Shown: piece after piece, positions 33,083 through 62,757 of the stretch
Layout of the letters: every line of letters begins with the position of its first letter
Position numbering within the stretch: the stretch's first letter is position 1
From: Streptomyces sp. CA-210063
GTDB lineage: Bacteria > Actinomycetota > Actinomycetes > Streptomycetales > Streptomycetaceae
Reading direction: 5' to 3'
DNA: 64,000 bases
NCBI RefSeq assembly: GCF_024612015.1
Contig: NZ_CP102512.1
Coordinates: 310,001 to 374,000 of the forward strand
Made by a program: the position numbers and the translations under genes
The notes under the pieces: model-generated
What the model was told of the DNA's origin: nothing
Database searches by the model: none
What the model saw: the letters and a program-made list of their open reading frames with translations, nothing else

Positions 33083-34291
33083 CTAGTCGGTGAGTTCACT
33101 GCCGACGACGGAGACGAAGGAGACGCATTCGCCGGGCCCGCCACCGAGGTTGTGCGTCAGGGCGAGCGAACGCCCCTCGGCGACGGACTTCACGGTCCGC
33201 TCGGGCGGTGCCTCGCCCCGCAGCTGCAGCCACGCCTCGAACATCATGCGGAGGCCCGAGGCGCCGATGGGGTGGCCGAAGGCCTTCAGACCGCCGTCCG
33301 GGTTCACGGGCAGCGAGCCGTCGAGGTCGAACGCCCCGCTGCTCACGTCCTTCCACGCCTGTCCGCGCTCGGCGAAGCCGAGGTCCTCCATCAGCACCAG
33401 TTCGGTGGGGGTGAAGCAGTCGTGGACCTCCGCGAGGGCGAGTTCGGCGCGCGGGTCGGTGATGCCCGCCTGCCGGTAGGCCTCCTGTGCGGAGGCGACG
33501 ACCTCGGGGAAGGTGGTGAAGTCGTACTGCGGGTCGAGGAGCCCGTCCGCCGGACCGGCGACGAAGGACAGCGCCTTCACGAAGACCGGCTTGTCCGTGT
33601 ACTTGTAGGCGTCCTCGGCACGCACGACGATCGCCGCAGCCGAACCGTCCGACACACCCGAGCAGTCGAACACGCCGAGCATGCCCGCGATGATGGGCGC
33701 CGAGCGGATGCGCTCCAGCGGGACCTCCTTGCGGAACTGGGCGCGGGGGTTGCGGGCCCCGTTGACGTGGTTCTTCCAGGCGATACGGGTGATGACGTCC
33801 TTCATCTCCTCGTCGGAGAGCCCGTACTTGGCCGCGTAGGCGGGGGCGAGCAGGGAGAAGTTGGCCGGGGCGGTGATCTCGCCTCGGCTGTCGTCGCCCG
33901 CGCCCGGGATCGCCGTGCCGGACAGCCCGGACATACCGGAGTCCTTGAGTTTCTCCACGCCGACGGCCATCGCCACGTCGTACGCCCCGGAGGCGACGGC
34001 GTAGCAGGCGTTGCGCAGCGCCTCGGATCCGGTGGCGCACATGTTCTCCACGCGGGTGACCGGCTTGCAGGGCAGGCGGAGTGCCCGGCTCAGGGTCAGC
34101 CCGGACACACCGGAGGCCTGGGTGCCGAACCAGAACGCGTCGATGTCGTCGAGGGTGACGCCGGCCGAGGTGACCGCGTCTCCCACGGCGTCCACCAGCA
34201 GATCGTCGGCCGAACGGGTCCAGTGCTCGCCGAAGGGCGTGCAGCCCATGCCGACGATCGCGACCCGGTCCCGGATTCCGTGCGAGCTCAT
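33083..34291 (-). CDS. SCP-x-like thiolase
   Basis: 402 residues. N-terminal Cys motif ENMCATGSEALRN is present, as are HDCFTPTELVLMEDLGF and GHPIGASGLRM. The C-terminal motif reads THNLGGGPGECVSF, as in the SCP2/lipid-transfer thiolase branch rather than the C-x-GGG of FadA thiolases. Its start overlaps the stop of the HMG-CoA-synthase-like/DUF35 gene as ATGA, which suggests the two proteins form a complex. Confidence 0.85.
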   Translation of the reverse strand: MSSHGIRDRVAIVGMGCTPFGEHWTRSADDLLVDAVGDAVTSAGVTLDDIDAFWFGTQASGVSGLTLSRALRLPCKPVTRVENMCATGSEALRNACYAVASGAYDVAMAVGVEKLKDSGMSGLSGTAIPGAGDDSRGEITAPANFSLLAPAYAAKYGLSDEEMKDVITRIAWKNHVNGARNPRAQFRKEVPLERIRSAPIIAGMLGVFDCSGVSDGSAAAIVVRAEDAYKYTDKPVFVKALSFVAGPADGLLDPQYDFTTFPEVVASAQEAYRQAGITDPRAELALAEVHDCFTPTELVLMEDLGFAERGQAWKDVSSGAFDLDGSLPVNPDGGLKAFGHPIGASGLRMMFEAWLQLRGEAPPERTVKSVAEGRSLALTHNLGGGPGECVSFVSVVGSELTD

Positions 34292-35736
34292 ACGGCCGTC
34301 TCCCCACCCTCGACGTTCTCGGCCGGCCGCACCGGCCGCGCCTTCCAGAAGTAGTTGTGGACGCCGGCGGCCGTGACGGTCCGCCGGAACGTCATCTCCA
34401 CCCGGGCGCCGATGACGGCGTCGGCCTCGGTCGCGTCGGTCAGCTGGCAGCGGAACCGTCCGCCGCCGTCGTAGTCGACGACCACGACGAGCATCGGCGG
34501 GCTGGGCGTGTGGGCCAGCCGGTCGACGGTGAACGTGGCGACCGTGCCGCGCACCTGCTCCATCGGCTCGTCGGTCATGGCGTCGACACTCCGGCAGGAC
34601 GCGCACACCCGGTCGGGCGGCAGCTGCCGGGTGCCGCACTTCTCGCAGCGGGCGGCGACGAAGCCGTACTTCCAGGCGGTGCGGCGGTGCGCGGGCGGCG
34701 CGTAGGGCGGCTCGGGGTCCGGCCGGCGGGGTGGTTCGCGGTCGAGCAGGCCGCGCCAGGTGAGGTAGGTGGCGTACGGCATCGGGGCGCTGCCCGCGGC
34801 GATCTGGGCGGCGACCGGGCGGGCGGCTCGGTGGGCCGGGAGGGCGTCGGTGGTGCGCAGCAGGAGCACTCCGGCGCCGTCGCCGAGCACGACGAGCGCG
34901 ATGGTCTCGCCGGGGGCGGCCCGGTCGAGGACGTCGGCGAGGAGCAGGCCGGGCTGGGCGGTGCCGGCGTTGCCGATCGTCGCGGTGAGGTCCGGGGTCA
35001 CCGCCTCGGGGCGTGCGCCGGCCGCCCGCCGGACCGCCGTGCATGCGCGCGCGTGCAGGCCGGAGACGACCAGGTGGTCGATGGCCGCGCGGTCAAGACC
35101 GGCCTGGTCGAGGGCGGCGCTCAGTGCCTTGTCCGCGAGGGAGACGTAGATGTCCTCGGCGAACCGTTCCTCCCAGACCCGGGAGGTGCGCGCGCCCGGC
35201 AGCCGCCAGCGTTCGAGGATCTCGTCGCTGACCGTGTCGTGGGCGAGCAGTTCGGCGATGACGGGGGCACCGTTGCGGTGGCCGCCGAAGACGAAGGCCG
35301 CCGCGCCGTCGCCGCCCGCGATCTCGTCGTTGCCGCCGGGCAGCCCGGTGCGCAGGTCCGACAGCACGGCCAGGGTCGGCACCGCGGAGCGGGCGGCGGT
35401 GACCAGCGCGCCGAGGCCGGAGCGTACGGAGCCGGCCATGTCGACGGCGAGTACGTGCTCGTCGAGCCGGAGCGCGGCGTGGACGGCGGTCGCGTTGGTC
35501 TTGTCGAGGTAGGCGGGTGCGGCCGTGGCGAGGAAGAGCTGGCCGACGCGGGAGCGCAGTCCGTCGCGGGTCAGCGCGGCGCGGGCCGCCTCGACGGCCA
35601 TGGAGGTGGTGTCCTCGTCGTAGCCCGCGACCGCGCGGGTGCCGCGTCCCGGGGGTGTGCCCAGCGTGGCCGCGACATCGGCGCGGGCGAGGCGGTGGTA
35701 CGGCACGTGGGCGCCGTACGCGATCAGTCCGGGCAT
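34288..35736 (-). CDS. HMG-CoA-synthase-like protein fused to a DUF35 domain
   Basis: 482 residues. The first 340 have the 3-oxoacyl-ACP/HMG-CoA synthase fold (GAHVPYHRL, SMAVEAARAAL, GGDGAAAFVFG, IGNAGTAQPGLLLADVL). The rest is a DUF35 zinc ribbon plus OB fold (CEKCG near 364, CASC near 379, GTVATFTVDRLAHTP). At the place of the nucleophilic Cys the sequence is VDMAGSVRSGLGAL, with no Cys, so Claisen catalysis is doubtful. DUF35 modules bind CoA intermediates and bridge thiolase-fold partners. Flanked by two thiolase genes with overlapping ends. Confidence 0.75.
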   Translation of the reverse strand: MPGLIAYGAHVPYHRLARADVAATLGTPPGRGTRAVAGYDEDTTSMAVEAARAALTRDGLRSRVGQLFLATAAPAYLDKTNATAVHAALRLDEHVLAVDMAGSVRSGLGALVTAARSAVPTLAVLSDLRTGLPGGNDEIAGGDGAAAFVFGGHRNGAPVIAELLAHDTVSDEILERWRLPGARTSRVWEERFAEDIYVSLADKALSAALDQAGLDRAAIDHLVVSGLHARACTAVRRAAGARPEAVTPDLTATIGNAGTAQPGLLLADVLDRAAPGETIALVVLGDGAGVLLLRTTDALPAHRAARPVAAQIAAGSAPMPYATYLTWRGLLDREPPRRPDPEPPYAPPAHRRTAWKYGFVAARCEKCGTRQLPPDRVCASCRSVDAMTDEPMEQVRGTVATFTVDRLAHTPSPPMLVVVVDYDGGGRFRCQLTDATEADAVIGARVEMTFRRTVTAAGVHNYFWKARPVRPAENVEGGETAV

Positions 35737-36968
35737 CAGCGTCCTCCAGGAGCTTCGTTGCCGGTGCGTTCGAAGATGGCCGCCAGTCCCTGTCCGCCGC
35801 CGAGGCACATCGTCTCCAGGCCGTAGCGGGCCTGGCGGCGGTCCAGTTCGCGCAGCAGGGTGGCGAGGATGCGGCCGCCGGTGGCGCCGACGGGGTGGCC
35901 CAGCGAGATGCCGGAGCCGTTGACGTTGAACCGCTCGAAGTCGGCGTCGGTCAGGGCCCATTCGCGGGTGCAGGCGAGTACCTGGGCGGCGAAGGCCTCG
36001 TTGAGTTCGATCAGGTCGATGTCGGCGAGCTTCAGCCCCGCGCGCTCCAGGGCCCTGGCCGTGGCGGGCACGGGCCCGATGCCCATGGTCTCGGGCGGTA
36101 CGCCGACCACGGCCCAGGAGACCAGGCGGGCCAGCGGGCGAAGGCCGAGTTCGGCGGCCCGTTCGGGGTGGGTGACGACGCAGAGCGAGGCGCCGTCGTT
36201 CTGGCCGCTGGCGTTGCCGGCGGTCACGGTGGCCTCCGGGTCCTGCCGGCCGAGCACGGGGCGGAGTGTGGCGAGCTTCTCCAACGACGAGTCGGGGCGC
36301 GGGTGTTCGTCCGTGTCCACGACCGTCTCGCCCTTCCGGGTGCGTACGGTGACGGGCACGATCTCGTCGGCGAAGCGGCCCTCCCGCTGGGCCGCGACGG
36401 CCTTCTCGTGCGAGCGCAGAGCCAGCCGGTCCTGTTCCTCGCGGGGAATGGCGTACTCGCGTCTCAGGTTCTCGGCGGTCTCCAACATCCCCCCGGGGAC
36501 GGGGTGGTTGACGCCTCCTGACGTCACGCGTCCACGGGCCAGGCGGTCATGGAGCATGGTTCCGGCGCCGCGCACGCCCCAGCGCGCGTCGGTGGTGTAG
36601 AACTCGGCCTGGCTCATGGACTCGACGCCGCCGGCCAGTACGAGATCGCTCGCGCCGGTCTGCACCTGCATCGCGGCGGTGATGATCGCCTGGAGTCCGG
36701 AGCCGCAGCGGCGGTCGATCTGGAGTCCCGGCACCTCGACGGGCAGTCCGGCGTCCAGGGCCGCCACGCGGCCGATGGCCGGGGCCTCGCCGTTGGGGTA
36801 GCACTGCCCGAGGATCACGTCGTCGACCGCCGTGGGCGGGACCCCGGTGCGGTCCAGGAGAGCACGTACCACGGTGGCCGCGAGGTGCGCCGCCGTGACG
36901 TCCCGGAAGACTCCCCCGTACCCTCCGACCGGGGTCCGTATCGGTTCGCAGATCACCGCGTCACGCAT
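35736..36968 (-). CDS. Acetyl-CoA acyltransferase (thiolase)
   Basis: A 410-residue class II thiolase. The nucleophilic Cys is about residue 88 (IDRRCGSGLQAI), with GHPVGATGGR and CLGGGQGLA completing the active site. It would cleave 3-ketoacyl-CoA in beta-oxidation. The stop overlaps the next start by one base (TGATG). It lies second in the operon headed by the SDR at 37747. Confidence 0.92.
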   Translation of the reverse strand: MRDAVICEPIRTPVGGYGGVFRDVTAAHLAATVVRALLDRTGVPPTAVDDVILGQCYPNGEAPAIGRVAALDAGLPVEVPGLQIDRRCGSGLQAIITAAMQVQTGASDLVLAGGVESMSQAEFYTTDARWGVRGAGTMLHDRLARGRVTSGGVNHPVPGGMLETAENLRREYAIPREEQDRLALRSHEKAVAAQREGRFADEIVPVTVRTRKGETVVDTDEHPRPDSSLEKLATLRPVLGRQDPEATVTAGNASGQNDGASLCVVTHPERAAELGLRPLARLVSWAVVGVPPETMGIGPVPATARALERAGLKLADIDLIELNEAFAAQVLACTREWALTDADFERFNVNGSGISLGHPVGATGGRILATLLRELDRRQARYGLETMCLGGGQGLAAIFERTGNEAPGGR

Positions 36969-37869: not shown

Positions 37870-39084
37870 GTGGACATCAGCTATCCCCCGGAGACCGAGA
37901 CGTTCCGCACCGAGGTCAGGACGTTCCTCGCCGAGGCGCTCCCGCCGGACTGGGCGGGCATCGGCGCCCTCGACGAGGAGGCGGCCCGGGCCTTCGCCCG
38001 CGACTGGCGCGGGCGGCTCGCCGAGCGCGGCTACCTCTCCCTCACCTGGCCCGAGCGTTACGGCGGCCGTGGCCTGTCCAAGCTCCACCAGGTCGTCCTG
38101 ATGGAGGAACTCGCCCTGGCCGGTGTGCCGTTCGGGCTGCCACAGGACACCTTCGGGGTGAAGATGCTGGCGAACACCCTGCTGCGCTGGGGCACGGAGG
38201 AGCAGAAGGCCCATTTCCTGCCCCGCATCCTCAGCGGCGAGGACACCTGGTGCCAGGGCTACTCGGAGCCGGACGCGGGCTCGGACCTGGCTTCCCTGAA
38301 GACGCGCGCCGCACTGGACGGCGAGGAGTGGGTGATCGACGGCCAGAAGGTGTGGACCTCCGGCGCCCACCACAGCGACTGGATCTTCGTCCTGGCCCGC
38401 ACGGACCGGGACGCCTCCAAGCACCGCGGCATCTCCTTCCTCCTCGTCCCGCTCGACCAACCCGGCGTCGAGGTACGCCCGTTCCGCATGATGAGCGGGC
38501 AGCTCCACTTCAACGAGGTGTTCTTCGACGGCGCCCGCACCCGCGCCGATCTCGTCGTCGGCGGCGTCGACAACGGCTGGACGGTGGCCCAGAGCCTGCT
38601 GGGGGTGGAGCGTGGGGAGGAGGCGGCGACCAATCCGATCCTGTTCAAGGCGGAGGTGGAGCGGCTGGTCGAGCTGGCGCGACTCCACGGCAAGGACCAG
38701 GACCCTGTCATCCGGCAACGGATCGCCTGGTGCTGGTCGAAGGTGGAGATCATGCGCTATCTCGGCTACCGGATCCTCACCGGCTGGCTGAAGGGTGCCG
38801 AGCCCGGCCCCGAGACGTCGATCGCCAAGCTGTACTGGAGCGAGTACCACACCGAGGTCACCGATCTGGCGATGGACATCATGGGCCTGCACGGCCAGGT
38901 CCCGGTGGGCCGCCCGCCGCTGCGCACCTACCGTGCCGACGACCCCGGCGCCGCCAACTCCTCGGCGTCCTGGTCGACGACGTACCTGATCGCCCGCTCC
39001 GGCACGATCTACGCGGGGACGTCCCAGGTGCAGCGGAACATCCTCGCGGAGAAGGTGCTGGGGCTGCCGCGGGAGCCGAGGTGA
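37870..39084 (+). CDS. Acyl-CoA dehydrogenase, FadE29-like
   Basis: 404 residues from the GTG at 37870, chosen because GAGGAGAG lies eight bases upstream; an ATG at 37807 has no ribosome site. Motifs: GYSEPDAGSDLASLKTRA, VIDGQKVWTSGAHHSDWIF, and the C-terminal IYAGTSQVQRNILAEKVLGLPRE, as in the alpha chains of steroid-type heterotetrameric dehydrogenases. A FadE28-like partner lies at 58251, another at 51920. Confidence 0.88.
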   Translation: MDISYPPETETFRTEVRTFLAEALPPDWAGIGALDEEAARAFARDWRGRLAERGYLSLTWPERYGGRGLSKLHQVVLMEELALAGVPFGLPQDTFGVKMLANTLLRWGTEEQKAHFLPRILSGEDTWCQGYSEPDAGSDLASLKTRAALDGEEWVIDGQKVWTSGAHHSDWIFVLARTDRDASKHRGISFLLVPLDQPGVEVRPFRMMSGQLHFNEVFFDGARTRADLVVGGVDNGWTVAQSLLGVERGEEAATNPILFKAEVERLVELARLHGKDQDPVIRQRIAWCWSKVEIMRYLGYRILTGWLKGAEPGPETSIAKLYWSEYHTEVTDLAMDIMGLHGQVPVGRPPLRTYRADDPGAANSSASWSTTYLIARSGTIYAGTSQVQRNILAEKVLGLPREPR

Positions 39085-39128: not shown

Positions 39129-39169
39129 GTCGCGTCACGCGACGGAGTCGCATAGCGCCCCTTAGGGCG
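39129..39169. terminator. Weak hairpins between convergent genes
   Basis: GTCGCGT/ACGCGAC (39129-39143) and CGCCC/GGGCG (39156-39169) are adjacent small stems after the acyl-CoA dehydrogenase; the second overlaps the end of the DUF2889 gene. Confidence 0.4.
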
Positions 39170-39791
39170 TTACCGAACCGCCGGACGAATCGGCCCGGCC
39201 CGCTTCGGGTTCAGGGTCTTGCGAGGACATCTCGAAGATCCTCAGCTCGGGGACCGGACGCGGGCCGGTCCCCGGGCGCCAGCCCGCGTCGAGCTTGCGC
39301 AGGCCCACGCCGTCCGGTGCCCAGATGTGGCAGCTGTTCAGCACCCCGGCCGTGGCGCGCGGGTCGTGGGAGGGCCGGCCGGCCATCCGCAGCCCCGCGT
39401 TGGCCGAGATGCCGGCCTGGACCACGGCCGGCCCGAGGACCCGCGCCAGCTCGTACAGGTGGGAGCACCCGGAGACACCGCGAAACCGCTCCTGGATGGC
39501 GCGGTTGTATCCGGCGGCGACGCTCAGCCCGACCAGGCCGTCGAAGACGGGCGTGATCAGCGGGCACTCGGCGTGCGGGAAGCCGCGCATGTCGGCGCCG
39601 GCGGCCACGATCACCATGTCCGCGAGGCGCACCCGCACCGCGAGCACCATGCTGTGGATGACGGCGGCCGACGGCTCGGCCCAGGGTCGGTCGTCGAGCA
39701 GCTCCGCCTCGACCGAGATCTCGTCGTCGCCCTCCCGGTACGCGGAGACCGTGATCGTCCGGCGGTGCAACGGCAGTTCGCTCCGGGTCAC
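39162..39791 (-). CDS. DUF2889-family protein
   Basis: 209 residues from a GTG overlapping the crotonase stop (GTGA). The ITVSAYREGDDEISVEAELLDD opening and the GVSGCSHLYEL and LNSCHIWAPDG segments are typical of DUF2889, a family of unknown function. A conserved Cys-Ser-His and a second Cys-His suggest a catalytic or metal site. Translational coupling to the enoyl-CoA hydratase links it to the degradation pathway. Confidence 0.75.
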   Translation of the reverse strand: MTRSELPLHRRTITVSAYREGDDEISVEAELLDDRPWAEPSAAVIHSMVLAVRVRLADMVIVAAGADMRGFPHAECPLITPVFDGLVGLSVAAGYNRAIQERFRGVSGCSHLYELARVLGPAVVQAGISANAGLRMAGRPSHDPRATAGVLNSCHIWAPDGVGLRKLDAGWRPGTGPRPVPELRIFEMSSQDPEPEAGRADSSGGSVTP

Positions 39792-40597
39792 GACGACTCC
39801 TCCTCCCCCAGCGCCGCGAACTCGGGCGTGCGGCGCTCGATGAAGCTGCGCACCCCCTCGCGGTAGTCGGGGGCGCGCTTGGCCACGGCGAGCAGCGCGG
39901 CCGCGCTGTCGCGGCTCTCGGTGAAGCCCCTCGCCTGGTCGTCGGCGAGCTGCCGCTTGATCAGGGACATCGCGTACGGACTGGCCGAGCGGGCCAGTTC
40001 GGTGGCGTACGCCAGGGCCGTCGGGAGGAGTTCGCCCGGCTCGACCAGACGGTTGACCAGGCCCATCGCATGGGCCTCCGTCCCGGTGATCCGACGTGAG
40101 GACAGCAGCAGATCGCTGGCGTTGCCGTGGCCGACCAGACGGGGCAGGAGCCAGGACACGCCGTCCTCGGCCACCAGTCCGCGGGCGCTGAAGGCGGCGG
40201 CGAACTTGGCGTGCGGCACGGCGAACCGGATGTCGCACATCAGCGCCTGGTTGAAGCCGATGCCCGCGCAGGCGCCGTTGACGGCCGCCACGACGGGCTT
40301 GGGGAAGGACATGGGCCGGCTGCGCGGGGGCAGCTGGTCGGTCGGCCAGGGGCGGGCACCGGAGGACGCCCCGTCCAGCACGCTCATGTCCATCCCCGGG
40401 CAGAAGCTGCGCCCGGCACCGGTGAGCACCACGGCCCGTACCCGGGGATCGGCCTCCGCCCGGTCGAACAGCTCGTTGTAGAGGAGCTCCATCTCCAGCG
40501 TCCAGGCGTTGTGCCGCTCGGGCCGGTTCAGGGTGAGGAGCATGACCCCGTCGTCGGTGAGTTCGGTGAGGATCACCGGGGTCGGATTCTCGGTCAT
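39788..40597 (-). CDS. Enoyl-CoA hydratase/isomerase (crotonase)
   Basis: 269 residues from the ATG at 40597. LTLNRPERHNAWTLEM, GRSFCPGMDMSVL (oxyanion segment) and AAVNGACAGIGFNQALMCD are crotonase motifs, with FSARGLVAEDGVSWLLPR holding one candidate catalytic Glu. Closest in the window to the crotonase at 46360; the two share the FCPGMD and ACAGIG segments. Divergent from a GntR gene. Confidence 0.88.
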   Translation of the reverse strand: MTENPTPVILTELTDDGVMLLTLNRPERHNAWTLEMELLYNELFDRAEADPRVRAVVLTGAGRSFCPGMDMSVLDGASSGARPWPTDQLPPRSRPMSFPKPVVAAVNGACAGIGFNQALMCDIRFAVPHAKFAAAFSARGLVAEDGVSWLLPRLVGHGNASDLLLSSRRITGTEAHAMGLVNRLVEPGELLPTALAYATELARSASPYAMSLIKRQLADDQARGFTESRDSAAALLAVAKRAPDYREGVRSFIERRTPEFAALGEEESS

Positions 40598-40736: not shown

Positions 40737-41540
40737 GTGGCCGAGGCAGCCCGCGCAGCAGAAACGGCGATCGTGCCCGCCCCCTCCCGCAACCGCGTCG
40801 GACGCCAGGTGCGGGTGCCGAAGACCGCCGAGCTGGTCGCCGCGCATCTGCGCCGCCAGATCGTACGGGGTGAACTGAAGCCCGGTGACGCGCTGCCGCC
40901 GGAGTCGGGCCTCATGGAGCAGTTCGGCATCTCACGGCCGACCCTGCGGGAGGCGTTCCGCGTCCTGGAGTCGGAGTCCCTGATCACGGTCCGCCGCGGC
41001 GCCCACGGCGGCGCCCGGGTGAGCGCGCCCGACGCCGACGTCGCCGCCCGCTTCGCCGGTCTGATCCTCGAATACCGCGGGGCCACCCTCGGCGACATCT
41101 ACCGCGCCGCCGCCCTCATCGAGCCGCCCTGCGCCCGCCAGCTGGCCGTGAAGCACACCCCGGACGACATCAAGCGACTGCGCGACGCGGTGGCCGCCGA
41201 GAAGTCCGTCCTGGACGACCCGCTCGCCCTCGTGGAAGCCCAGGACGCCTTCCACGCCCTCCTGATCGAACTCACCGGCAACCAGACCCTGATCCTGCTG
41301 TGCGGCATGCTGCGCAACATCATCGACCGGGCCAACGCCTCCTACACCGCGGCCGCCACCGACGCCGAGACCCAGAAGGCACAGGCCCTCAAGGGGCACC
41401 GCGCCCATGTGCGGATGGTCGGCCTGATCGAGTCCGGCAAGGCCGACGAGGCCGAGAAGCTGTGGCAGCGGCACATCTCCAGCGCCGACGACGTGGTGAA
41501 CGCGGCCGGCCCCAAGACGGTGCTCGAACTCCTCGACTGA
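40737..41540 (+). CDS. FadR-type GntR regulator (FCD family) 1
   Basis: 267 residues from a GTG. Winged helix-turn-helix: VAAHLRRQIVRGELKPGDALPPE, FGISRPTLREAFRVLESESLI, VRRGAHGGARV. The C-terminal FCD ligand domain has YRAAALIEPPCARQLA, DAFHALLIELTGNQ and GHRAHVRMVGLIESG, with metal-ligand-type Asp/His residues. It probably senses an acyl-CoA or acid intermediate and represses the island. Close paralogue of the regulator at 60441. Confidence 0.9.
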   Translation: MAEAARAAETAIVPAPSRNRVGRQVRVPKTAELVAAHLRRQIVRGELKPGDALPPESGLMEQFGISRPTLREAFRVLESESLITVRRGAHGGARVSAPDADVAARFAGLILEYRGATLGDIYRAAALIEPPCARQLAVKHTPDDIKRLRDAVAAEKSVLDDPLALVEAQDAFHALLIELTGNQTLILLCGMLRNIIDRANASYTAAATDAETQKAQALKGHRAHVRMVGLIESGKADEAEKLWQRHISSADDVVNAAGPKTVLELLD

Positions 41541-42879: not shown

Positions 42880-42922
42880 CCTGGCGGCGGGCCCGGTCTA
42901 ACCGACCAGGCCCGCCGCCAGG
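42880..42922. terminator. Convergent terminator hairpin
   Basis: CCTGGCGGCGGGCC and GGCCCGCCGCCAGG form a perfect 14-bp stem with a 15-base loop. The right arm lies inside the 3' end of the serine hydrolase gene. Confidence 0.75.
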
Positions 42923-51869: not shown

Positions 51870-51940
51870 CTCGGATACCGAGCCGGGCAGGGTCTCGGCA
51901 TCCGAGCCGGGCAGAGGGCTCAGATGCCGAGCCGCGTGGC
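51870..51940. repeat. Three 24-bp direct repeats, each a small dyad
   Basis: Units begin at 51870, 51894 and about 51919: CTCGGATACCGAGCCGGGCA, CTCGGCATCCGAGCCGGGCA, CTCAGATGCCGAGCCGCG. Each holds CTCGG-N3-CCGAG and can form a hairpin. The last overlaps the 3' end of the upstream dehydrogenase gene. The array fills the spacer between the two dehydrogenase genes and may tune their ratio. Confidence 0.7.
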
Positions 51941-53038: not shown

Positions 53039-53090
53039 GCCGAGCTTCCCGTCCTCGCCTGCCGACCGCTTGCCCACACACTCCACGATA

Positions 53091-53959: not shown

Positions 53960-53981
53960 CCCCATCAACAAGGAACCGATC

Positions 53982-55987: not shown

Positions 55988-56465
55988 TCAGGCGGTGCCG
56001 AGGACGAGGTCGGCCGCCCGCCAGGCCATGGCCATGATCGGTGCGTTCAGGTTGCCGGACACCATGGTCGGCATGACCGAGCAGTCGACCACCCGCAGGC
56101 CTGCGACACCGCGCACCCGCAGCTCGGCGTCGACGACGTCGTCCTCGGCCGGGCCCATGGCGCAGGTGCCGACGACGTGGTAGCCGCAGCGCCCGTGGTC
56201 GAGGCCGGCGTCGATGATCTGCTGGTCCTCGCGGACCGCGGGGCCCGGCAATGTCTCGGTCGTGATCCGGTCGGCGATCGGCTCAGTCTCGAAGAGCTCC
56301 CGCATACGGCGGAAGAGGGCGGCGCCCACGGTGCGGTCGTGATCGGAGCCGTAGTAGTTCGGCGTGATCGTGAGGGGGGCCTCTCCCGGGGTCCTCGGAG
56401 AGCCGGCCTGCGAGTACGCAGCCCGCGGAGCCCGCGCCCACCACGATGTAGTCGAAGGTGGTCAT
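55988..56465 (-). pseudogene. GMC oxidoreductase with large internal deletion
   Basis: The ATG at 56465 begins TTFDYIVVGAGSAGCVLAGRLSEDPG, the FAD-binding N-terminus of GMC flavoproteins (choline/alcohol oxidase group, about 530 residues). Directly after it, in another frame, the C-terminal end follows: LTITPNYYGSDHD, HGRCGYHVVGTCAMGP and SVMPTMVSGNLNAPIMAMAWRAADL. Some 370 residues are missing. The active-site His-containing tail survives but cannot be made in frame with the N-terminus. Confidence 0.85.
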
Positions 56466-57349
56466 CGCTCCACCTGCCCCGACGGCTCCCCGAAGGGACG
56501 GAACTCCCCCTCATGCCACCAGGGGTAGACGGGCGGCATGTCCTTGCTGACCCGGCCCGGGAACTCGGGCGGCCGTTTGGCGAGGAACGACTGGACGCCC
56601 TCCACGGGGTCCGGGCCGCCGCCGATCTGGCTCATGATGCGGGAGTCGAGGCGGTGCGCGGTCATCGGGTGGGGTTCGCCGAGCATGCGCCACATCATCT
56701 GGCGTGACAGGGCGACGGAGATCGCCGAGGTGTTCTCGGCGATCTCGCGGGCGAGTGCGTACGCCGCCGGCAGCAGCTCCTCAGGCGGGTGGACGGAGCG
56801 GACCAGCCCGGCCGCCAGTGCCTCGTCGGGGCCGAAGACGCGGCCGGTGGACACCCATTCCATGGCCCGCTGCATGCCCACGGCCCGCGGCAGGAACCAG
56901 CTCGCCGCCGACTCCGGCACGATCCCGCGCCGCGCGAAGACGAAGCCGAACTTGGCCGAGGTCGACGCCAGCCTGATGTCCATGGGCAGGGTCATGCTGG
57001 CCCCGACGCCCGCCGCCGGGCCGTTGACCGCCGCGATGACCGGCTTGGTGCTGGAGAAGATCCTGAGCGCGACCCGGCCGCCGGTGTCCCTGTGCCACGC
57101 GCCCGCCTTGCGGTGGTCGAAGGACGAGCCGCCGGAGCTGACGTCCGCGCCCGCGCAGAAGCCGCGTCCGGCGCCGGTCACGACGATCACCCGTACCTCG
57201 TCGTCGGCATCGGCCGCGTCCAGGACGTCCAGCAGGTCCTGCATCATCTGAGGGGTGAAGGCGTTGAGCTTCTCGGGCCGGTTCAGTGTGACGGTGAGGA
57301 TCCGTTCCGCCACCTCGGCCCGCACGGTCTCGTACTCCTGCTCCGGCAT
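56462..57349 (-). CDS. Enoyl-CoA hydratase/isomerase (crotonase)
   Basis: 295 residues from the ATG at 57349, nine bases after GGAGG; a GTG at 57358 is less likely. LTVTLNRPEKLNAFTPQMMQ, GRGFCAGADVSSGGSS, AAVNGPAAGVGASMTLPMDIRLA, FVFARRGIVPESAASWFLPR holds the catalytic Glu position. It overlaps the GMC remnant start as ATGA, so the two were once an operon. Confidence 0.88.
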   Translation of the reverse strand: MPEQEYETVRAEVAERILTVTLNRPEKLNAFTPQMMQDLLDVLDAADADDEVRVIVVTGAGRGFCAGADVSSGGSSFDHRKAGAWHRDTGGRVALRIFSSTKPVIAAVNGPAAGVGASMTLPMDIRLASTSAKFGFVFARRGIVPESAASWFLPRAVGMQRAMEWVSTGRVFGPDEALAAGLVRSVHPPEELLPAAYALAREIAENTSAISVALSRQMMWRMLGEPHPMTAHRLDSRIMSQIGGGPDPVEGVQSFLAKRPPEFPGRVSKDMPPVYPWWHEGEFRPFGEPSGQVER

Positions 57350-57437
57350 ACGCGTCACCCTCCGTCAGCCTCATCACCAAGCGAGCCGTTCCCAGTAAGC
57401 TGAATTAGTTATACCATTGAACTCTACTTACTCATTC
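57350..57437. promoter_or_regulatory. Divergent crotonase promoter region
   Basis: AT-rich GAATTAGTTATACCATTGAA (57402-57421) resembles the other island boxes (TTAG-N-TAT core). It serves crotonase genes on both sides. Confidence 0.45.
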
Positions 57438-58247
57438 ATGGATGCGGCGGTGGATGTGGACATGGCGGATCTGGTGGTGACCTCCCACGGGCCGGTCCGG
57501 CTCATCGAGCTGAACCGGCCCGACCAGCTCAACGCGATGAGCGAGGAGCTGCACTCCGGGCTCGCCTCGGTCTGGGACACGCTCGCCGACGACCCTCAGG
57601 CACGGGTCGTCGTGCTCACCGGGCGCGGCCGGGCGTTCAGCGCCGGGGGCAACTTCGACATCATGACCCGCGTCCAGCGCGACAGCGCGTTCCGGGAACA
57701 GAACGTCGACGAGGCACGGCGGATCATCACCGGCATGGTCCGCTGCCCGCTGCCGGTGATCGCGGCGGTCAACGGCCCCGCCGTCGGCCTCGGTTGCAGC
57801 CTGGCCCTGCTGAGCGACCTCGTGCTGATCGCCGACGACGCGTATGTGGCCGACCCGCACGTCCAGGTCGGGCTGGTCGCGGGCGACGGTGGCGCGCTGG
57901 TCCTGCCCCTGCTCGTCGGCCTGACCCGCGCGAAGGAACTGCTGTTCCTCGGCGACCGGATGAGCGCCGAGGAGGCGGTCCGGCTGGGCGTCGCCAACCG
58001 CGTCGTACCGAAGGACAAGCTCATGGACGAGGCCATGGACCTGGCCGGGCGGCTGGCCGCCCTGCCCGCGCAGGCGCTGCGCGAGACCAAACGGGCGGTG
58101 AACCTGCATCTGGAGCAGGCGCTCGCCACCGTCCTCGAGCCCGCCCTGCTCGCCGAGCGGGACAGCATGCACTCCCCGGACCACATCGCCCTCGTCGAGA
58201 AGATCATCGCAGCGCGCGCCCGGCGCCGGGCCGACGAGAAGGGCTGA
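57438..58247 (+). CDS. Enoyl-CoA hydratase/isomerase (crotonase)
   Basis: 269 residues from the ATG at 57438; an ATG at 57462 (MADLVVTS) fits the family start equally well. [47 protein letters not shown] and VGLVAGDGGALVLPLLVG. It begins a rightward operon with the dehydrogenase and the F420 oxidoreductase. Confidence 0.88.
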   Translation: MDAAVDVDMADLVVTSHGPVRLIELNRPDQLNAMSEELHSGLASVWDTLADDPQARVVVLTGRGRAFSAGGNFDIMTRVQRDSAFREQNVDEARRIITGMVRCPLPVIAAVNGPAVGLGCSLALLSDLVLIADDAYVADPHVQVGLVAGDGGALVLPLLVGLTRAKELLFLGDRMSAEEAVRLGVANRVVPKDKLMDEAMDLAGRLAALPAQALRETKRAVNLHLEQALATVLEPALLAERDSMHSPDHIALVEKIIAARARRRADEKG

Positions 58248-58250: not shown

Positions 58251-59414
58251 ATGGACTTCGCCTTCAGCGACGAGCAGGAGGAACTGCGGCGCACGGTAAG
58301 GGCGTTCCTCGCGGACACCTCGCCCGAGACCGAGGTCCGGCGGCTGATGGAGACCCCGGCGGGCTTCGACCGGGCGCTGTGGCGCCGGATGGGCTCGGAG
58401 CTGGGCCTCCAGGGGCTGGCCGTCCCCGAGGAGTACGGCGGCGCCGGGTGCGGGCCGGTGGAGGTGGGCGTGGTCATGGAGGAGATGGGACGGGCGCTGT
58501 TGTGCGCGCCCTTCCTGTCCTCAGCCGTGCTGGCCACGACCACGCTGCTGCGCTGCGCCGACGAGGACGCCCGCAAGGCCCTGCTGCCGGGCCTGGCCTC
58601 CGGGGAACTCGTCGGGACGCTGGCCCTGACCGAGGACTCCGCCCGCTGGGACGCGGCGGGAGTGCGGCTCACCGCCCGGGAGACCAACGGGAGTTGGCTG
58701 CTGACCGGGCACAAGACGTTCGTCCTCGACGGGGCCACCGCCGATGTCGTCCTCACCGTGGCCCGTACCGACGACGGCATCGGCGTCTTCCGCGTGGACG
58801 GCGACGCGGCCGGGCTGACCCGTGAGCCCCTGCCCACGATGGACCCGACCCGCCGGCAGGCACGCCTCGACTACGAGGACGTACCGGCGACCCGGCTGCG
58901 GACGCACGGCGACGGCTGGGACCTGGTCGCCGAGGTACTGGACCGGGCATCGGTGGCGCTGGCCGCCGAGCAGGTCGGGGTGGCCTCCCGGGTGCTCGAC
59001 ATGGCCGTGGAGTACGCCAGGACGCGGCACCAGTTCGGGCGGCCCATCGGCTCGTTCCAGGCCGTGAAGCATCTTCTCGCCGACGTCCTCCTGGAGGTGG
59101 AGTCGGCACGCGCCGCCGCGCACTACGCGCTGCTCGCCGCCGAGGGCGAGGACCCGGGGCTGCCCGCCGTGGCGAGCCTGGCCAAGGCGTTCTGCTCGGA
59201 CGCCTGTCTGCGGGCGACGGCGGAGAACATCCAGGTGCACGGCGGCATCGGCTTCACCTGGGAGCACCCGGCCCATCTGTATCTGAAGCGGGCCAAGACA
59301 TCACAACTGCTGTTCGGCGACCCTGCGTACCACCGGGAACTGCTCGCGCGGCGCATCGGATTGGACGCCATCACAGTGACATCGGACGCGGACACGGAAG
59401 AAGGAGCGGCATGA
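58251..59414 (+). CDS. Acyl-CoA dehydrogenase, FadE28/ChsE1-like
   Basis: 387 residues. [61 protein letters not shown] and [20 protein letters not shown]. Same type as the chain at 51920; no alpha-type chain is adjacent, so it may pair with the one at 37870. Three bases after the crotonase and overlapping the next gene by four. Confidence 0.87.
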   Translation: MDFAFSDEQEELRRTVRAFLADTSPETEVRRLMETPAGFDRALWRRMGSELGLQGLAVPEEYGGAGCGPVEVGVVMEEMGRALLCAPFLSSAVLATTTLLRCADEDARKALLPGLASGELVGTLALTEDSARWDAAGVRLTARETNGSWLLTGHKTFVLDGATADVVLTVARTDDGIGVFRVDGDAAGLTREPLPTMDPTRRQARLDYEDVPATRLRTHGDGWDLVAEVLDRASVALAAEQVGVASRVLDMAVEYARTRHQFGRPIGSFQAVKHLLADVLLEVESARAAAHYALLAAEGEDPGLPAVASLAKAFCSDACLRATAENIQVHGGIGFTWEHPAHLYLKRAKTSQLLFGDPAYHRELLARRIGLDAITVTSDADTEEGAA

Positions 59415-60433
59415 AGGTCGACGGCAAGCTCAATGTGTGGAGCACCACGGGCGTGGTCGAGGAGGCGAGACACCACGAGAAGGCCGGCTACGACGGTCTG
59501 TGGGCGTCCGAGTCCAAGCACGACCCCTTCCTGCCGCTGGTGCTGGCGGCGGAGCACACCGACCGCCTGGAAGTCGGCACGGCCATCGCGGTCGCCTTCG
59601 CCCGCTCCCCCATGCAACTCGCCTACACCGCACACGACTTGCAGACCTATGCCGGGGGACGTTTCTCGCTCGGCCTGGGCAGCCAGATCAAGCCCCACAT
59701 CGAGCGGCGTTTCGACATGCCGTGGAGCCGGCCGGCGGCCCGGATGCGGGAGTACGTGAGCGCGCTGCGCGCCATCTGGGCCTCCTGGAACGAGGGCGAG
59801 CGGCTGAACTTCCGCGGCGACTTCTACTCGCACACCCTGATGTCGCCCTTCTTCTCTCCGCCGCCCGCGCCCGGCGGCGCGCCCAAGGTGTTCGTGGCCG
59901 CCGTGGGTGAGGCGATGACCCGGGTGGCCGGCGAGGTCGCCGACGGACTGCTCGCGCACGGCTTCACCACCGAGCGGTATCTGCGGGAGGTCACGCTGCC
60001 GACCGTCGAGACGGGGCTGACGAAGTCCGGCCGTACCCGAGCCGACTTCTCCGTCTCCCACCTCCTGCTGACCGCGACCGGCCGCACGGAGGAGGAGATG
60101 GCCCGCGCGATCGACGGCACCCGTGCCCAGATCGCCTTCTACGGCAGCACTCCCGCCTATCGCGGGGTGCTGGAGCTGCACGGGTGGGGGGAACTCGGCG
60201 ACGAACTGCACGCGTTGTCGACGTCCCGCCGCGAGGACAAGTGGGAGGCGATGAGCCGGCTCGTCGACGACGAGGTGCTGCACACCTTCGCGGTGGTGGC
60301 CGAGCCGGACCGGGTCGCGGGCGAGATCCGCCGCCGGTACGGGGCGCTCGTCGACCGGGTGTCCTTCTACACCGCGTACGAGATCGACGCCGCGGTGTGG
60401 GAGCCCATCGTCGGGGAGCTGCACGGAAGTTGA
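59411..60433 (+). CDS. F420-dependent LLM-class oxidoreductase
   Basis: 340 residues of the bacterial-luciferase-like fold. EEARHHEKAGYDGLWASESKHDP, VGTAIAVAFARSPMQLAYTAHDLQ, GRFSLGLGSQIKPHIERRF, and the insertion with PKVFVAAVGEAMTRVAGEVADGLL match the F420-type subgroup rather than LuxA/LuxB. It may reduce or oxidise a carbonyl or enoyl intermediate with F420. Starts by an ATGA overlap with the dehydrogenase stop. Confidence 0.85.
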   Translation: MKVDGKLNVWSTTGVVEEARHHEKAGYDGLWASESKHDPFLPLVLAAEHTDRLEVGTAIAVAFARSPMQLAYTAHDLQTYAGGRFSLGLGSQIKPHIERRFDMPWSRPAARMREYVSALRAIWASWNEGERLNFRGDFYSHTLMSPFFSPPPAPGGAPKVFVAAVGEAMTRVAGEVADGLLAHGFTTERYLREVTLPTVETGLTKSGRTRADFSVSHLLLTATGRTEEEMARAIDGTRAQIAFYGSTPAYRGVLELHGWGELGDELHALSTSRREDKWEAMSRLVDDEVLHTFAVVAEPDRVAGEIRRRYGALVDRVSFYTAYEIDAAVWEPIVGELHGS

Positions 60434-60440
60434 CGGTAGG

Positions 60441-61199
60441 TCAGCCGAGCAGGTCCAGGACGGTGGTCATGGACCTGTTCTGCAGCAGATAGTCCTCCGC
60501 CTCCTGGAGGTGGAGGCGCCACAGCTCCTCGGCGGCCTCGGCCCGCCGCGCGGCCACCAGCTCGACGAGCGCGCCGTGGGCGCGGAAGCCCCGGCGGTTG
60601 GCCCGGATGTTCTCGGGGCTGCCGGCGTCGAGGTCGACATGGGACCAGTTCGCCTGGTCGATGATGTTCCGGACCATGCCGTTGAGGACGCCGAGCGTCT
60701 CGTTGCCCGCCAGCTCGACGACGAGGGCGTGGAACTCCATGTGGGCGCGGATGAAGGCCGACGGGTCGTCCATCAGCGCCTCGGCCTCGGCGACGGCGGC
60801 CCGCAGCCGCTCCAGGTCCTCGTCCGTGCGCCGCCCGGCCAGCAGTCCGGCGCACGGCGCCTCGATCACCGTACGGGCGTCGTACACGTCCTTGAGGGTC
60901 GTGCCCCGGTACTCGAGGACGACCCCCGCGTAGCGGGCGGCCACCGTGCCCTCCGGGGTCTGCACGCGCGCCCCGCCCCGGGCGCCCCGGCGCACGCTGA
61001 TCAGGGACTCCGACTCCAGCACCCGGAACGCCTCGCGCAGCGTCGGCCGGGAGACGGCGAACTCCGCCATCAGAGCCGTCTCGGCGGGCAGCGCGTCTCC
61101 TTCCGCGAGTTCACCGCGCACGATCTTGCGGCGCAGCTGTGCCGCCACCAGCTCGGCCATCTTGGGCACCCGTACCGGTGTGTTCGCCACGGCGTCCAT
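60441..61199 (-). CDS. FadR-type GntR regulator (FCD family) 2
   Basis: 252 residues. VAAQLRRKIVRGELAEGDALPAE, FAVSRPTLREAFRVLESESLI and VRRGARGGARV, nearly the same DNA-recognition helix as the regulator at 40737, so both may bind the same sites. FCD domain: VYDARTVIEAPCAGLLAG, EFHALVVELAGNE, FRAHGALVELV. Last gene of the leftward operon from the ligase; five bases after the DUF35 gene, which fits autoregulation. Confidence 0.9.
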   Translation of the reverse strand: MDAVANTPVRVPKMAELVAAQLRRKIVRGELAEGDALPAETALMAEFAVSRPTLREAFRVLESESLISVRRGARGGARVQTPEGTVAARYAGVVLEYRGTTLKDVYDARTVIEAPCAGLLAGRRTDEDLERLRAAVAEAEALMDDPSAFIRAHMEFHALVVELAGNETLGVLNGMVRNIIDQANWSHVDLDAGSPENIRANRRGFRAHGALVELVAARRAEAAEELWRLHLQEAEDYLLQNRSMTTVLDLLG

Positions 61200-61204
61200 C
61201 TCCT

Positions 61205-61606
61205 TCAGTCACCCGCATCCGGCACGAAGTACGGCAACATGATCTCGTCGGTGAGCGGACGGAAGTCCACCCGGACGCGCAGGCCGATGATTACGCCGTC
61301 CAGGTCGCCCGCGTCGACATGGGACAGCAGGGTGCCGCCGTCGTCCAGATCGACCACGGCGAGCGCGAACGGCGTGTCGAAGCCGGGGCCCGGCGCGCGG
61401 TGCACCACGGTCACGGAGTAGACCGTGCCCCGGCCCGCGCTGGGCACATACCGCCAGTCCCGTGCCAGGCACCCCGGGCAGGCGGGCTCGGGGACGAAGA
61501 AGCGCAGGCCGCAGGTCGGGCAGTGGGGGACGACCAGGTCGCCGCGCCGGGCCGCGTCCCAGAAGGGCCGGGTCAGGGGGGTGGGGGCGGGTACGGGCCT
61601 GCTCAT
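61205..61606 (-). CDS. Stand-alone DUF35 (Zn-ribbon/OB-fold) protein
   Basis: 133 residues from the ATG at 61606, overlapping the thiolase-like stop as ATGA. Zinc ribbon CPTCGLRFFVPEPACPGC, then OB fold (GRGTVYSVTVVHRAP, FALAVVDLDDGG). DUF35 proteins of this type bind the thiolase-fold aldolase Ltp2 in cholesterol side-chain degradation and complete its active site. The coupling to the following gene supports such a complex here. Confidence 0.85.
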   Translation of the reverse strand: MSRPVPAPTPLTRPFWDAARRGDLVVPHCPTCGLRFFVPEPACPGCLARDWRYVPSAGRGTVYSVTVVHRAPGPGFDTPFALAVVDLDDGGTLLSHVDAGDLDGVIIGLRVRVDFRPLTDEIMLPYFVPDAGD

Positions 61607-62757
61607 CGTGTCCTCCCCAGAACGCTCATCTCGTAGTGCTGCGCCCCGGAACCGGCGTTGCCGACGACCGCCAGCTCCGCGCCCTCGATCTGGTGCACGG
61701 CGGTTCCGCGCAACTGCCGTACAGCTTCGACGACTTTGAGCGTCATCTGCTGGGTGCCGTTCCAGGCGTACGCCAGACAGCCGCCGTCCGGGTTGACGGG
61801 GTGCTTGCCGCCGACGGCGATCGCGCCACTGGCCGCGAGCGGTCCACCCTCGCCCTCTCCGCACAGCCCGAGGATCTCCAACTGCCGGATGATCTCGAAG
61901 GAGTTGGGGTCGTAGAGGGAGAAGACGTCCACGTCGTGCGGGCTCACGCCGGCCATGGCGTAGGCGCGCTCGGCCGCGTCCCGGCCTAGCTGACCGACCT
62001 CGCGGTGCAGGGCCGGGTTGGCGTAGGCGGCCTGGTGGTACTCCATGCCTCCGCCGAGGACGGCGACGGGCGGGTGCGGCAGGTCGCGGGCGCGTTCGGC
62101 GGTGGTCACCACGAGGGCGGCGCCGCCCTCGCCGACGATGCAGCAGTCCAGCAGGTGGAACGGTGTGGCCACCATGCGGGAGGCGAGCACGTCGTCGGCG
62201 GTGTACGGGCCGCGCCCGTACATCATCGCCTCCGGGTTGGTGGTGCCGTTGTTGCGGATGGTCGCGGCGACCTCCGCGAGCTGGCGGGAGGTCGTCCCGT
62301 ACTCGTGCATGTGCCGCGCGGCCACCAGCGCGAACTGGGCGACGACATAGCTGCCCCACACGTCGGCGAACTCCAGCGGCACCCCGGCCGCGACCGGGCC
62401 CGCACCGCGCGCGACCAGCTTGCAGCCGCCGACCACGACGGTGTCCGCGAACCCGGCGTGGATGGCCGCCGCCGCCTTCAGCAGGCCCCGCGAGCCCGCG
62501 TTGTCGAGCATGGAATCGCTGGTCCAGCGCAGGTCCCGGCCGAGCATGCGGGCCCAGGAGCTGCCCTCGCCGGGCACGCCGCCCGGGCCGGGCCAGTCGA
62601 CCTGGGCGCCGTCGACGTCCGCCGGGGTGAGCCCGGCGTCCGTGATCGCTCCGCGCACCGCTTCGAGGGCGAGGTCCATGGCGTCGCGGTCCGGGAGGGA
62701 CAGCGCCTGCTCGGTGGCGTACACCCCCGCGACCACGGGCCGGCGGCCGTCCTTCAC
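61603..62757 (-). CDS. Thiolase-fold aldolase-like protein (Ltp2 type), no nucleophilic Cys
   Basis: 384 residues from the GTG at 62757. Thiolase fold throughout (DADADVDGAQVDWPG-like start, ATIRNNGTTNPEAMMYG, HDVDVFSLYDPNSFEIIRQLE, KHPVNPDGGCLAYAWNG). At the Cys position the sequence is LDNAGSRGLLKAA, and the C-terminal C-x-GG is replaced by NAGSGAQHYE. It therefore cannot be a normal thiolase. A retro-aldol role like Ltp2, with the DUF35 partner, is the best inference. Confidence 0.8.
   Translation of the reverse strand: MKDGRRPVVAGVYATEQALSLPDRDAMDLALEAVRGAITDAGLTPADVDGAQVDWPGPGGVPGEGSSWARMLGRDLRWTSDSMLDNAGSRGLLKAAAAIHAGFADTVVVGGCKLVARGAGPVAAGVPLEFADVWGSYVVAQFALVAARHMHEYGTTSRQLAEVAATIRNNGTTNPEAMMYGRGPYTADDVLASRMVATPFHLLDCCIVGEGGAALVVTTAERARDLPHPPVAVLGGGMEYHQAAYANPALHREVGQLGRDAAERAYAMAGVSPHDVDVFSLYDPNSFEIIRQLEILGLCGEGEGGPLAASGAIAVGGKHPVNPDGGCLAYAWNGTQQMTLKVVEAVRQLRGTAVHQIEGAELAVVGNAGSGAQHYEMSVLGRTR

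Follow-up and report, generated by a model that had tools for sequence, protein, structure and literature searches.

Streptomyces sp. CA-210063 has a genome assembled as a single contig of 10.86 Mb (NZ_CP102512.1), and the window analyzed here is the 64,000-nucleotide stretch covering its bases 310001-374000. We found that an island of 59 genes (g42-g100; 62.4 kb) begins in this window and extends beyond its end (window coordinates 24507-86903, genome coordinates 334507-396903). We read it, with moderate confidence, as an accessory catabolic island that would take up a carboxylic acid, convert it to a coenzyme A (CoA) thioester and degrade bulky chains, alicyclic or branched, by a CoA-dependent route. 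The island would work in the manner of steroid side-chain oxidation on another acid, probably alicyclic or branched. Gene content, gene order, family placement, catalytic residues and genome distribution are read directly from the DNA; each reaction, the oligomers and the substrate class are what we infer, the alicyclic or branched class from the types of enzymes encoded.

A preliminary description of this DNA had compared positions 33083-62757 with the mycobacterial igr operon for cholesterol side-chain degradation. The gene pairs on which it drew are all present: two acyl-CoA dehydrogenases (ACADs; g66/g67, from 50651 and 51920), two MaoC proteins (g59/g60, from 45456 and 45890), and a DUF35 protein with a thiolase-fold protein lacking the nucleophilic cysteine (g77/g78, from 61205 and 61603). 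So are the DUF2889, SnoaL, amidohydrolase and additional crotonase genes that it noted near them.

An accessory island shared by few Streptomyces genomes

Genes were predicted over bases 290001-450000 with our own codon-usage caller and numbered g1-g142. The order of g42-g100 is kept in all three of the other Streptomyces genomes compared over the full length, of which G011 shares all 59 genes and G646 and G672 share 58 each, without g71, a remnant of a glucose-methanol-choline (GMC) oxidoreductase gene. Island proteins are 79-97% identical across these three genomes, with a few insertions in G672, and a fourth carrier, G713, has a shuffled part set of the island genes. The range 33083-62757, previously taken as the unit, is the middle of the colinear island and not the whole of it. 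At the left edge g42 is the last gene conserved in 3/3 compared genomes, with no direct left neighbor common to them; at the right edge g112 follows g100 in G011, G646 and G672, and 11 genes intervene in CA-210063. The gene g78 is present in 15 of 295 Streptomyces genomes, CA-210063 included (E <= 1e-120), and the island sits 0.33 Mb from the contig end. Because the carriers are limited in number, no direct left neighbor is shared and the position is near the contig end, the island is accessory. Its density of ACAD and DUF35 genes is well beyond chance: it makes up 0.57% of the 10.86 Mb and holds 8 of the genome's 49 PF00441 matches (~0.3 expected) and 3 of its 9 DUF35 matches (~0.05 expected).

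Family scans with Pfam or NCBIfam covered all 59 island genes, g95 through its first 46 residues only. The island encodes eight ACADs, its own electron transfer flavoprotein (ETF) pair, six crotonases, three MaoC proteins, six short-chain dehydrogenases/reductases, AMP-forming and ADP-forming acyl-CoA ligases, two family III CoA-transferases and two thioesterases. To these are added two amidohydrolase-2 proteins, two luciferase-like monooxygenase (LLM) proteins, an aldehyde dehydrogenase, a LuxC protein, a serine hydrolase, a glycoside hydrolase family 1 (GH1) protein, a branched-chain-type ATP-binding cassette (ABC) uptake system and two GntR regulators. No cytochrome P450, Rieske, KstD or extradiol family was found among the 59 island genes, window genes to the left of 24507 not having been scanned; the earlier statement that the 64 kb hold no P450, KstD or ring-cleavage gene is borne out to that extent.

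This inventory bears on a further explanation, degradation of the ring of an aromatic or phenylpropanoid-like acid, in which g78/g77 would act in the manner of the ibuprofen enzymes IpfD/IpfE. Amidohydrolases, a PaaK-like ligase and branched-chain-type ABC uptake fit aryl acids. No ring-hydroxylating or ring-cleaving oxygenase family is encoded by the 59 scanned genes, however, and we consider this explanation quite improbable.

Predicted heteromeric acyl-CoA dehydrogenases beside the steroid families

The ACAD subunits discussed here are encoded in the window as follows.

37870..39084, + strand: g52, predicted alpha-type ACAD subunit (catalytic-residue pattern; groups with g66)
50651..51829, - strand: g66, ACAD alpha subunit, predicted active (6wy8/6wy9 alpha; Glu at IVD position)
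51920..53077, - strand: g67, predicted ACAD beta subunit without catalytic Glu (best PDB match 6wy8_A)
58251..59414, + strand: g74, predicted beta-type ACAD subunit (Glu at neither position)

The island ACADs comprise three predicted alpha/beta sets, g66/g67, g52/g74 and g89/g88, and two ordinary enzymes, g81 and g87. The genes g66/g67 are adjacent, as are g89/g88 outside the window; g52 and g74 lie apart, though both inside 33083-62757. In g66, g52 and g89 a glutamate occupies the position used in enzymes of the isovaleryl-CoA dehydrogenase (IVD) type, and the medium-chain acyl-CoA dehydrogenase (MCAD) position is Gly or Ala (Gly in g66, Ala in g52); g67, g74 and g88 have Glu at neither position. 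These sets match the pattern of one catalytic Glu per pair that passages of PMC8399759 describe for steroid ACAD heterotetramers. The likely partner of g52 is g74, and homologues of the two are close together in locus L078.

The nearest PDB matches of g66 are the Thermomonospora curvata alpha chain of 6wy8/6wy9 (199 bits) and 4x28_A (183), with the next at 134 bits. For g67 the best match is the beta chain 6wy8_A (165 bits); ordinary ACADs reach at most 136, and 4x28_D is fifth at 127. The Chs pair to which 4x28 belongs is assigned here presumptively. The ACAD tree unites the alpha rows of the island with two steroid alpha chains on one branch (100/100), on which the island rows and their relatives form a separate 14-row group (98/96) with the steroid chains outside; the island beta rows likewise share a branch with two steroid beta chains (100/99) and fall in a 12-row group (100/99) without them. 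As far as only two steroid references per subunit can tell, the island ACADs are placed in the heteromeric superclade as sisters of the steroid ChsE families. Both this tree and the thiolase tree below use few reference enzymes, all PDB chains, and the CtSal row is partial. The FadE28/FadE29-like pair of the preliminary description thus keeps its place in the ChsE-type superclade but stands beside the ChsE subunits and not among them, and identity of the 50651/51920 pair with FadE28/FadE29 itself is rejected by the tree.

Another family to which the pair can be compared is the pimeloyl-CoA dehydrogenase PimCD, a heteromeric-type ACAD. In agreement with the tree, the best NCBIfam model of g66 is pimC_large (208 bits, cut-off 624), and that of g67 is IpdE2 (217 bits, cut-off 450) followed by pimD_small (194 bits, cut-off 653). 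If these ACADs were PimCD-like, the island could serve ordinary dicarboxylic or long-chain fatty acid degradation, and passages of PMC12543098 report fitness effects on dicarboxylic acids for a PimCD-like pair in beta-proteobacteria. The scores are, however, only about one third of the equivalog cut-offs, so that g66/g67 are rejected as PimCD itself, and straight chains need no DUF35 enzyme lacking Cys, no re-entry through an aldehyde dehydrogenase and no amidohydrolases; this explanation is improbable. Neighboring ACADs resembling alpha/beta pairs are also found near 6.02, 7.99 and 9.12 Mb, and such pairs are therefore not rare in CA-210063.

The MaoC pair

45456..45893, - strand: g59, MaoC hydratase, predicted catalytic half (PF01575; GDFNPLH)
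45890..46342, - strand: g60, MaoC hydratase, probably inert half (PF13452; GDENPAY)

The motif of g59, GDFNPLH, is the active one and that of g60, GDENPAY, lacks the histidine, which suggests a hydratase of active and inert halves. The PDB matches of g59 are a MaoC family protein at 67 bits, HadB at 61 and the ChsH1/ChsH2 chains at 31, and the family scan found no DUF35 fusion in g59 or g60. With this weak ChsH match and no fusion, the earlier assignment of the pair as ChsH1-ChsH2 is rejected.

Three thiolase-fold modules with DUF35 partners

33083..34291, - strand: g48, thiolase with catalytic Cys (NF004810, 601.6 bits, cut-off 403)
34288..35736, - strand: g49, HMG-CoA-synthase-like/DUF35 fusion (PF01796, PF12172, PF08541)
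60441..61199, - strand: g76, GntR regulator (PF00392, PF07729)
61205..61606, - strand: g77, DUF35 protein with C4 zinc ribbon (PF01796, PF12172)
61603..62757, - strand: g78, thiolase-fold protein without the nucleophile Cys (own clade; YDPN motif)
62762 to 64351 (past window end), - strand: g79, acyl-CoA ligase (PF00501)
outside the window, in one gene run with g79: g80, aldehyde dehydrogenase (PF00171)

The island holds three thiolase-fold modules with DUF35, g78/g77, g48/g49 and g90/g91, and the canonical C4 zinc ribbon C-x2-C-x10-C-x2-C is found in the DUF35 of each; the third DUF35 domain lies outside the window (L002:16294-16737). In g78 the nucleophile Cys column is occupied by Asp, and the cysteines of the protein are elsewhere. 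Passages of PMC12329534 give the base of the steroid aldolase TcLtp2 as Tyr294 of a YDHF motif and its acid as Tyr344; in CtSal the base is Tyr302 and the acid Cys304 of YDCY, Gln352 takes the place of Tyr344, and the DUF35 partner has a C3H1 zinc site. In g78 the motif is YDPN, with Tyr282 as the base Tyr, and the position of TcLtp2 Tyr344 is Trp, within the sequence LAYAWNG. The base Tyr is kept in 24/24 rows of the wider g78 family; the g78 clade has Trp at the Tyr344 place in 15/15 rows and Pro (13/15) or Ala (2/15) as the third motif residue; in the 9 family rows outside the clade, His replaces the Trp. Neither of the known acid positions thus carries its residue, and any proton donor would therefore be new.

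In the thiolase tree g78 falls on the side of the aldolases without Cys, in a clade of its own. Ltp2 lies apart from it together with two plasmid sequences, and g78 is ~35% identical to the genome's own true Ltp2. By analogy g78 is a probable retro-aldolase and g77 its likely partner. Among the matches listed, g78 is followed immediately downstream by DUF35 in 40 of the 43 loci; one of the other three ends at the gene, one has DUF35 68 bp away and one has g79 in between. The Ltp2-like character ascribed to g78 in the preliminary description holds for its side of the tree and not for its clade or its active site, and a phylogeny placing the ACADs and g78 outside the heteromeric and aldolase clades, named there as the result that would speak against it, was not what we obtained. 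Identity of g78 with Ltp2 is rejected by the tree, by the active site and by the true Ltp2 elsewhere in the genome, and assignment of g77/g78 to the Sal type by YDPN in place of YDC and C4 in place of C3H1.

The run g80-g79-g78-g77-g76 has gaps of 28, 4, -4 and 5 bp. It resembles the proteobacterial Sal-Shy-Sad system for the C5 side chain of bile acids in combining an aldolase and DUF35 with an aldehyde dehydrogenase and a CoA ligase, but differs from it in the C4 ribbon of g77 and the YDPN of g78 (YDCY in Sal), and in having no Shy-type fusion.

The second module has a different character. The thiolase g48 keeps both its canonical Cys and His and is the likely partner of g49, whose PDB matches are the HMG-CoA synthase (HMGCS) of 6esq and PhlA. 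As in the archaeal thiolase/HMGCS/DUF35 complex (6esq) and in PhlACB (5m3k), a thiolase (g48) and an HMGCS fold with DUF35 (g49) are encoded together; unlike in these, the HMGCS fold and DUF35 form one polypeptide, and RSG replaces the synthase Cys motif, which is lost in 26/26 aligned proteins, g49 included. We found g49 in 13 of the 61 nearest genomes searched, two of these 13 being among the 37 of the genus; the g49-type HMGCS-like/DUF35 fusion has 7266 homologues at E <= 0.001 among 7999 scored.

PhlACB is a biosynthetic complex, and the match of g49 to PhlA, together with the LuxC and PaaK-like genes, is what speaks for the island's LuxC, LLM and thiolase-fold genes building an acyl product. 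Eight ACADs, an ETF, ABC uptake and GntR regulators point the other way, as does the result of the family scans, which detected among the island genes no family of carrier proteins, synthase modules or exporters, and we regard a biosynthetic role as very improbable indeed.

The third module, g90/g91, lies outside the window; its nearest matches are BbsB (161 bits) and the SCP2 thiolase (153). Like the benzoylsuccinyl-CoA thiolase BbsAB (7pxp) it is a thiolase-DUF35 pair with the nucleophile Cys kept, but in g90 and three relatives (4/4 rows) the His of the HD motif is replaced by Gln and that of the GHP motif by Glu. A second pair of this kind (53% and 46% identical), with an ACAD beta-like gene, is found at L160:8231-11043 (- strand), 0.47 Mb from the other chromosome end.

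True igr-type genes and the steroid question

Genuine igr-type genes are found 5.1 Mb from the island. A ChsH2-ChsH1-Ltp2 trio is encoded at 5.510-5.513 Mb (L155:9162-11904, + strand); its members are a fusion of MaoC type with DUF35, a small MaoC protein whose 26.9 bits fall slightly short of the cut-off (27), and Ltp2. This Ltp2 is 68.8% identical to TcLtp2 over the 372 residues compared and is present in 77 of 101 Streptomyces genomes, CA-210063 included (E <= 1e-120), and a second Ltp2-like protein (46%) is encoded near 6.08 Mb. With the genuine trio elsewhere, the igr labels that the preliminary description gave to the island genes are not supported.

The island and the igr operon share alpha/beta ACADs with one catalytic Glu per pair, a MaoC hydratase with active and inert halves and a thiolase-fold enzyme without Cys that has DUF35 and the base Tyr. 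They differ in that the island ACADs are sister clades, its MaoC hydratase is not fused to DUF35, and Pro and Trp fill the two remaining known Ltp2 positions in g78. The island genes are distributed among several operons that encode many additional enzymes, and the host lacks KshA and has true ChsH/Ltp2 genes apart from the island.

KshA_C has 0 matches in the CA-210063 genome (KstD, IpdAB and Mce4 were not searched for genome-wide), where the ChsH2-ChsH1-Ltp2 trio is nonetheless present. Among the 15 Streptomyces carriers, CA-210063 included, four have a match above the Pfam cut-off, at only 90-97 bits, and 10 of the 14 others have none. The guess at a non-steroid substrate in the preliminary description gains support from these results. 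Outside the genus the picture is different: the named genomes with a g78 homologue number 13, and KshA has no match in the three Streptomyces among them, but seven of the remaining ten reach 288-315 bits with their best match. These seven include Amycolatopsis, Gordonia and mycobacteria, in which steroid degradation is common. The strong KshA lies within ~52 kb of a strong extradiol match in 7/7 such genomes, and the g78 homologue is on another contig than KshA in five of the seven and 0.87 Mb away in Kitasatospora. The best match to the HsaC-like dioxygenase model (TIGR03213) in CA-210063 reaches 266 bits of the 366 needed, and it is not near KshA since the genome has no KshA_C match; carriers G011, G453 and G455 have at most 66 bits and carrier G454 has 304.

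A true pathway for the side chains of steroids, bile acids or sterols, with the rings left intact, would account for steroid enzymes being the closest solved relatives of g66 and g67, and for KshA occurring in 7/10 non-Streptomyces genomes with a g78 homologue, once within ~70 kb. As described in passages of PMC10398937, moreover, the Atf1-ChsH4 HBC operon of Mycolicibacterium neoaurum encodes a sterol aldolase, a stand-alone DUF35, an ACAD and a regulator far from ring genes; its genes are, unlike those of the island, sterol-induced and under KstR3, and g78 is likened to its aldolase by description only. The absence of KshA_C from the host genome, the weak matches in four carriers (90-97 bits vs 288-315 in the seven relatives) and the genuine trio elsewhere argue against such a pathway, and six crotonases, two amidohydrolases, GH1 and ABC uptake exceed a side-chain set. 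We judge it unlikely.

Relatives outside Streptomyces

Fifteen of the 16 non-Streptomyces loci with at least 55% identity to g78 were annotated together with L133-L135, and the sixteenth, L094, was added for the neighborhood counts. Among the matches listed, g78 homologues of at least 92% identity are all in Streptomyces records. Those of at least 55% include actinobacteria (Streptomyces, Amycolatopsis, Actinomadura, Kitasatospora, Nocardioides, Gordonia, mycobacteria, Parafrankia and Pseudonocardia) and also Aquabacterium, Hydrogenophilaceae and bins of Sphingomonas, an alphaproteobacterium and a member of the Acidobacteria. In 17 non-Streptomyces neighborhoods (up to 21 kb, three under 14 kb and one of 41 kb; homologue threshold at least 45%), g77 recurs with g78 in 13, g79 in 11, g94 in 7, g97 and g100 in 6 each, and others in at most 4.

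A large part of the set is found, reshuffled, in Amycolatopsis and Actinomadura, where 15/18 and 18/21 matched genes are at 62-86% identity and the rest at 31-56%. The plasmid of Rhodococcus BH4 (L134) has homologues of g97 (79%), g88/g89 (62/67%), g90 (55%), g56, g57 and g81, and a g78 relative of only 33%. Plasmid relatives in Rhodococcus DMU1, BH4 and RHA1 and in Mycobacterium branderi are shuffled gene subsets with no named pathway; the clusters of BH4 and M. branderi (L135) contain DUF35-thiolase pairs and several neighboring ACADs and have many genes in common with the island. Beside the Mycobacterium rhodesiae JS60 relative is a P450 nearest to ancestral CYP125 and then to CYP101 types, too unspecific to name a substrate. 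The large open reading frame (ORF) next to g78 in L082, L083 and L090 was considered as a possible KstD, but by its start it reads unlike a flavin dehydrogenase and is presumably hydrolase-like.

Other genes of the island

24507..25877, - strand: g42, LuxC-type acyl-CoA reductase, left island end (PF05893, 177 bits)
25895..27244, - strand: g43, 0 Pfam families (GTSGK motif)
27309..32193: g44-g46, branched-chain-amino-acid-type ABC uptake; ATPase (-), binding protein (-), permease/ATPase (+) (PF00005, PF13458, PF02653)
35736..36968, - strand: g50, classical thiolase (NF004853, 718 bits, cut-off 551)
39162..39791, - strand: g53, DUF2889 (PF11136, 102 bits)
39788..40597, - strand: g54, crotonase (NF004857, 301 bits, under cut-off 341)
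40737..41540, + strand: g55, GntR regulator (family scan)
41679..42860, + strand: g56, amidohydrolase-2 (PF04909)
42898..43995, - strand: g57, beta-lactamase-fold serine hydrolase (PF00144, 167 bits)
43988..45451, - strand: g58, acyl-CoA ligase (family scan)
46360..47202, - strand: g61, crotonase (family scan)
47207..47710, - strand: g62, hotdog thioesterase (TIGR00369, above cut-off)
47856..49052, + strand: g63, family III CoA-transferase (PF02515, 446 bits)
50133..50654, - strand: g65, SnoaL-like (PF13577)
53138..54479, + strand: g68, crotonase, and g69, MaoC (PF00378, PF01575)
54458..55873, - strand: g70, GH1 glycosidase (PF00232, 184 bits)
55988..56329, - strand: g71, GMC oxidoreductase C-terminal remnant (PF05199)
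56462..58247: g72 (-) and g73 (+), crotonases (PF00378)
59411..60433, + strand: g75, F420-type LLM oxidoreductase (TIGR03617, 494 bits, cut-off 278)

The GTSGK motif suggests that g43 is an adenylating protein of LuxE/PaaK type, and a g43 homologue stands beside LuxC also in loci L076, L092 and L095. The serine hydrolase g57 is a likely esterase or lactonase. The remnant g71 is the last 113 residues of a GMC oxidoreductase whose G011 counterpart is a 533-residue ORF, ~1.1 kb being missing in CA-210063. Outside the window, g93 (L002:17674-18381, - strand) has no Pfam or NCBIfam match and adjoins the PaaK-like g94 both in CA-210063 and in every one of the 8 related loci where it was identified; of the homologues scored, 110 reach E <= 0.001, and those with names are mostly hypothetical Streptomyces proteins.

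Proposed route and its implications

In the route that we propose, the ABC system would import the acid and a ligase would convert it to the CoA thioester. The alpha/beta dehydrogenases would then form a hindered double bond, to which MaoC or crotonase hydratases would add water, and wherever the resulting beta-hydroxyl is tertiary or hindered, DUF35-bound g78/g77 would cut the C-C bond of the beta-hydroxyacyl-CoA in a retro-aldol reaction. The aldehyde dehydrogenase and ligase of the operon g80-g79-g78-g77 may return the aldehyde product to the cycle; in bile-acid breakdown, passages of PMC8399759 have Sad and a CoA ligase acting after the Sal aldolase. The modules g48/g49 and g90/g91 could perform further thiolytic or related cleavages, and the amidohydrolases, crotonases, LLM enzymes and serine hydrolase are candidates for opening a ring or lactone. 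Since no known type of ring-attacking oxygenase is encoded, ring opening would be hydrolytic or proceed via the LLM enzymes. Among conceivable substrates, abscisic, jasmonic and rubber-derived acids were considered.

Several observations weigh against a single route of this kind on a non-steroid acid. As discussed above, g78 has neither the Tyr344 of Ltp2 nor the Cys304 of Sal as proton donor, so that the retro-aldol reaction is an analogy. A strong KshA accompanies the g78 homologue in 7/10 non-Streptomyces genomes, and Mycobacterium sp. M26, in which two KshA-type genes lie ~67-72 kb from it on the same contig, is the only one of the seven that could link the two. Finally, only g77, g79, g94, g97 and g100 recur in at least 6 of the 17 neighborhoods, and the island may therefore hold more than one pathway.

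A broader proposal, which we offer tentatively as possible and no stronger, is that g78/g77 and their relatives in Actinobacteria, Proteobacteria and Acidobacteria constitute a new class of DUF35-bound, CoA-dependent C-C lyases with a Tyr/Trp active site. They would then mark a previously undescribed route for a common alicyclic acid of terpenoid type, one that for the most part needs no oxygen and of which the island would be the complete Streptomyces version. Open-licence literature, searched by title and the start of the abstract, yielded no paper on such a gene set.

The combination of two-part dehydrogenases with a DUF35 aldolase, usually interpreted as a steroid signature, is found here in a host without KshA, and these genes alone should therefore not be taken to imply steroid degradation. 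The island also yields a thiolase-fold clade of its own, whose active site can be tested, and delimits the genes with which to search for the substrate.

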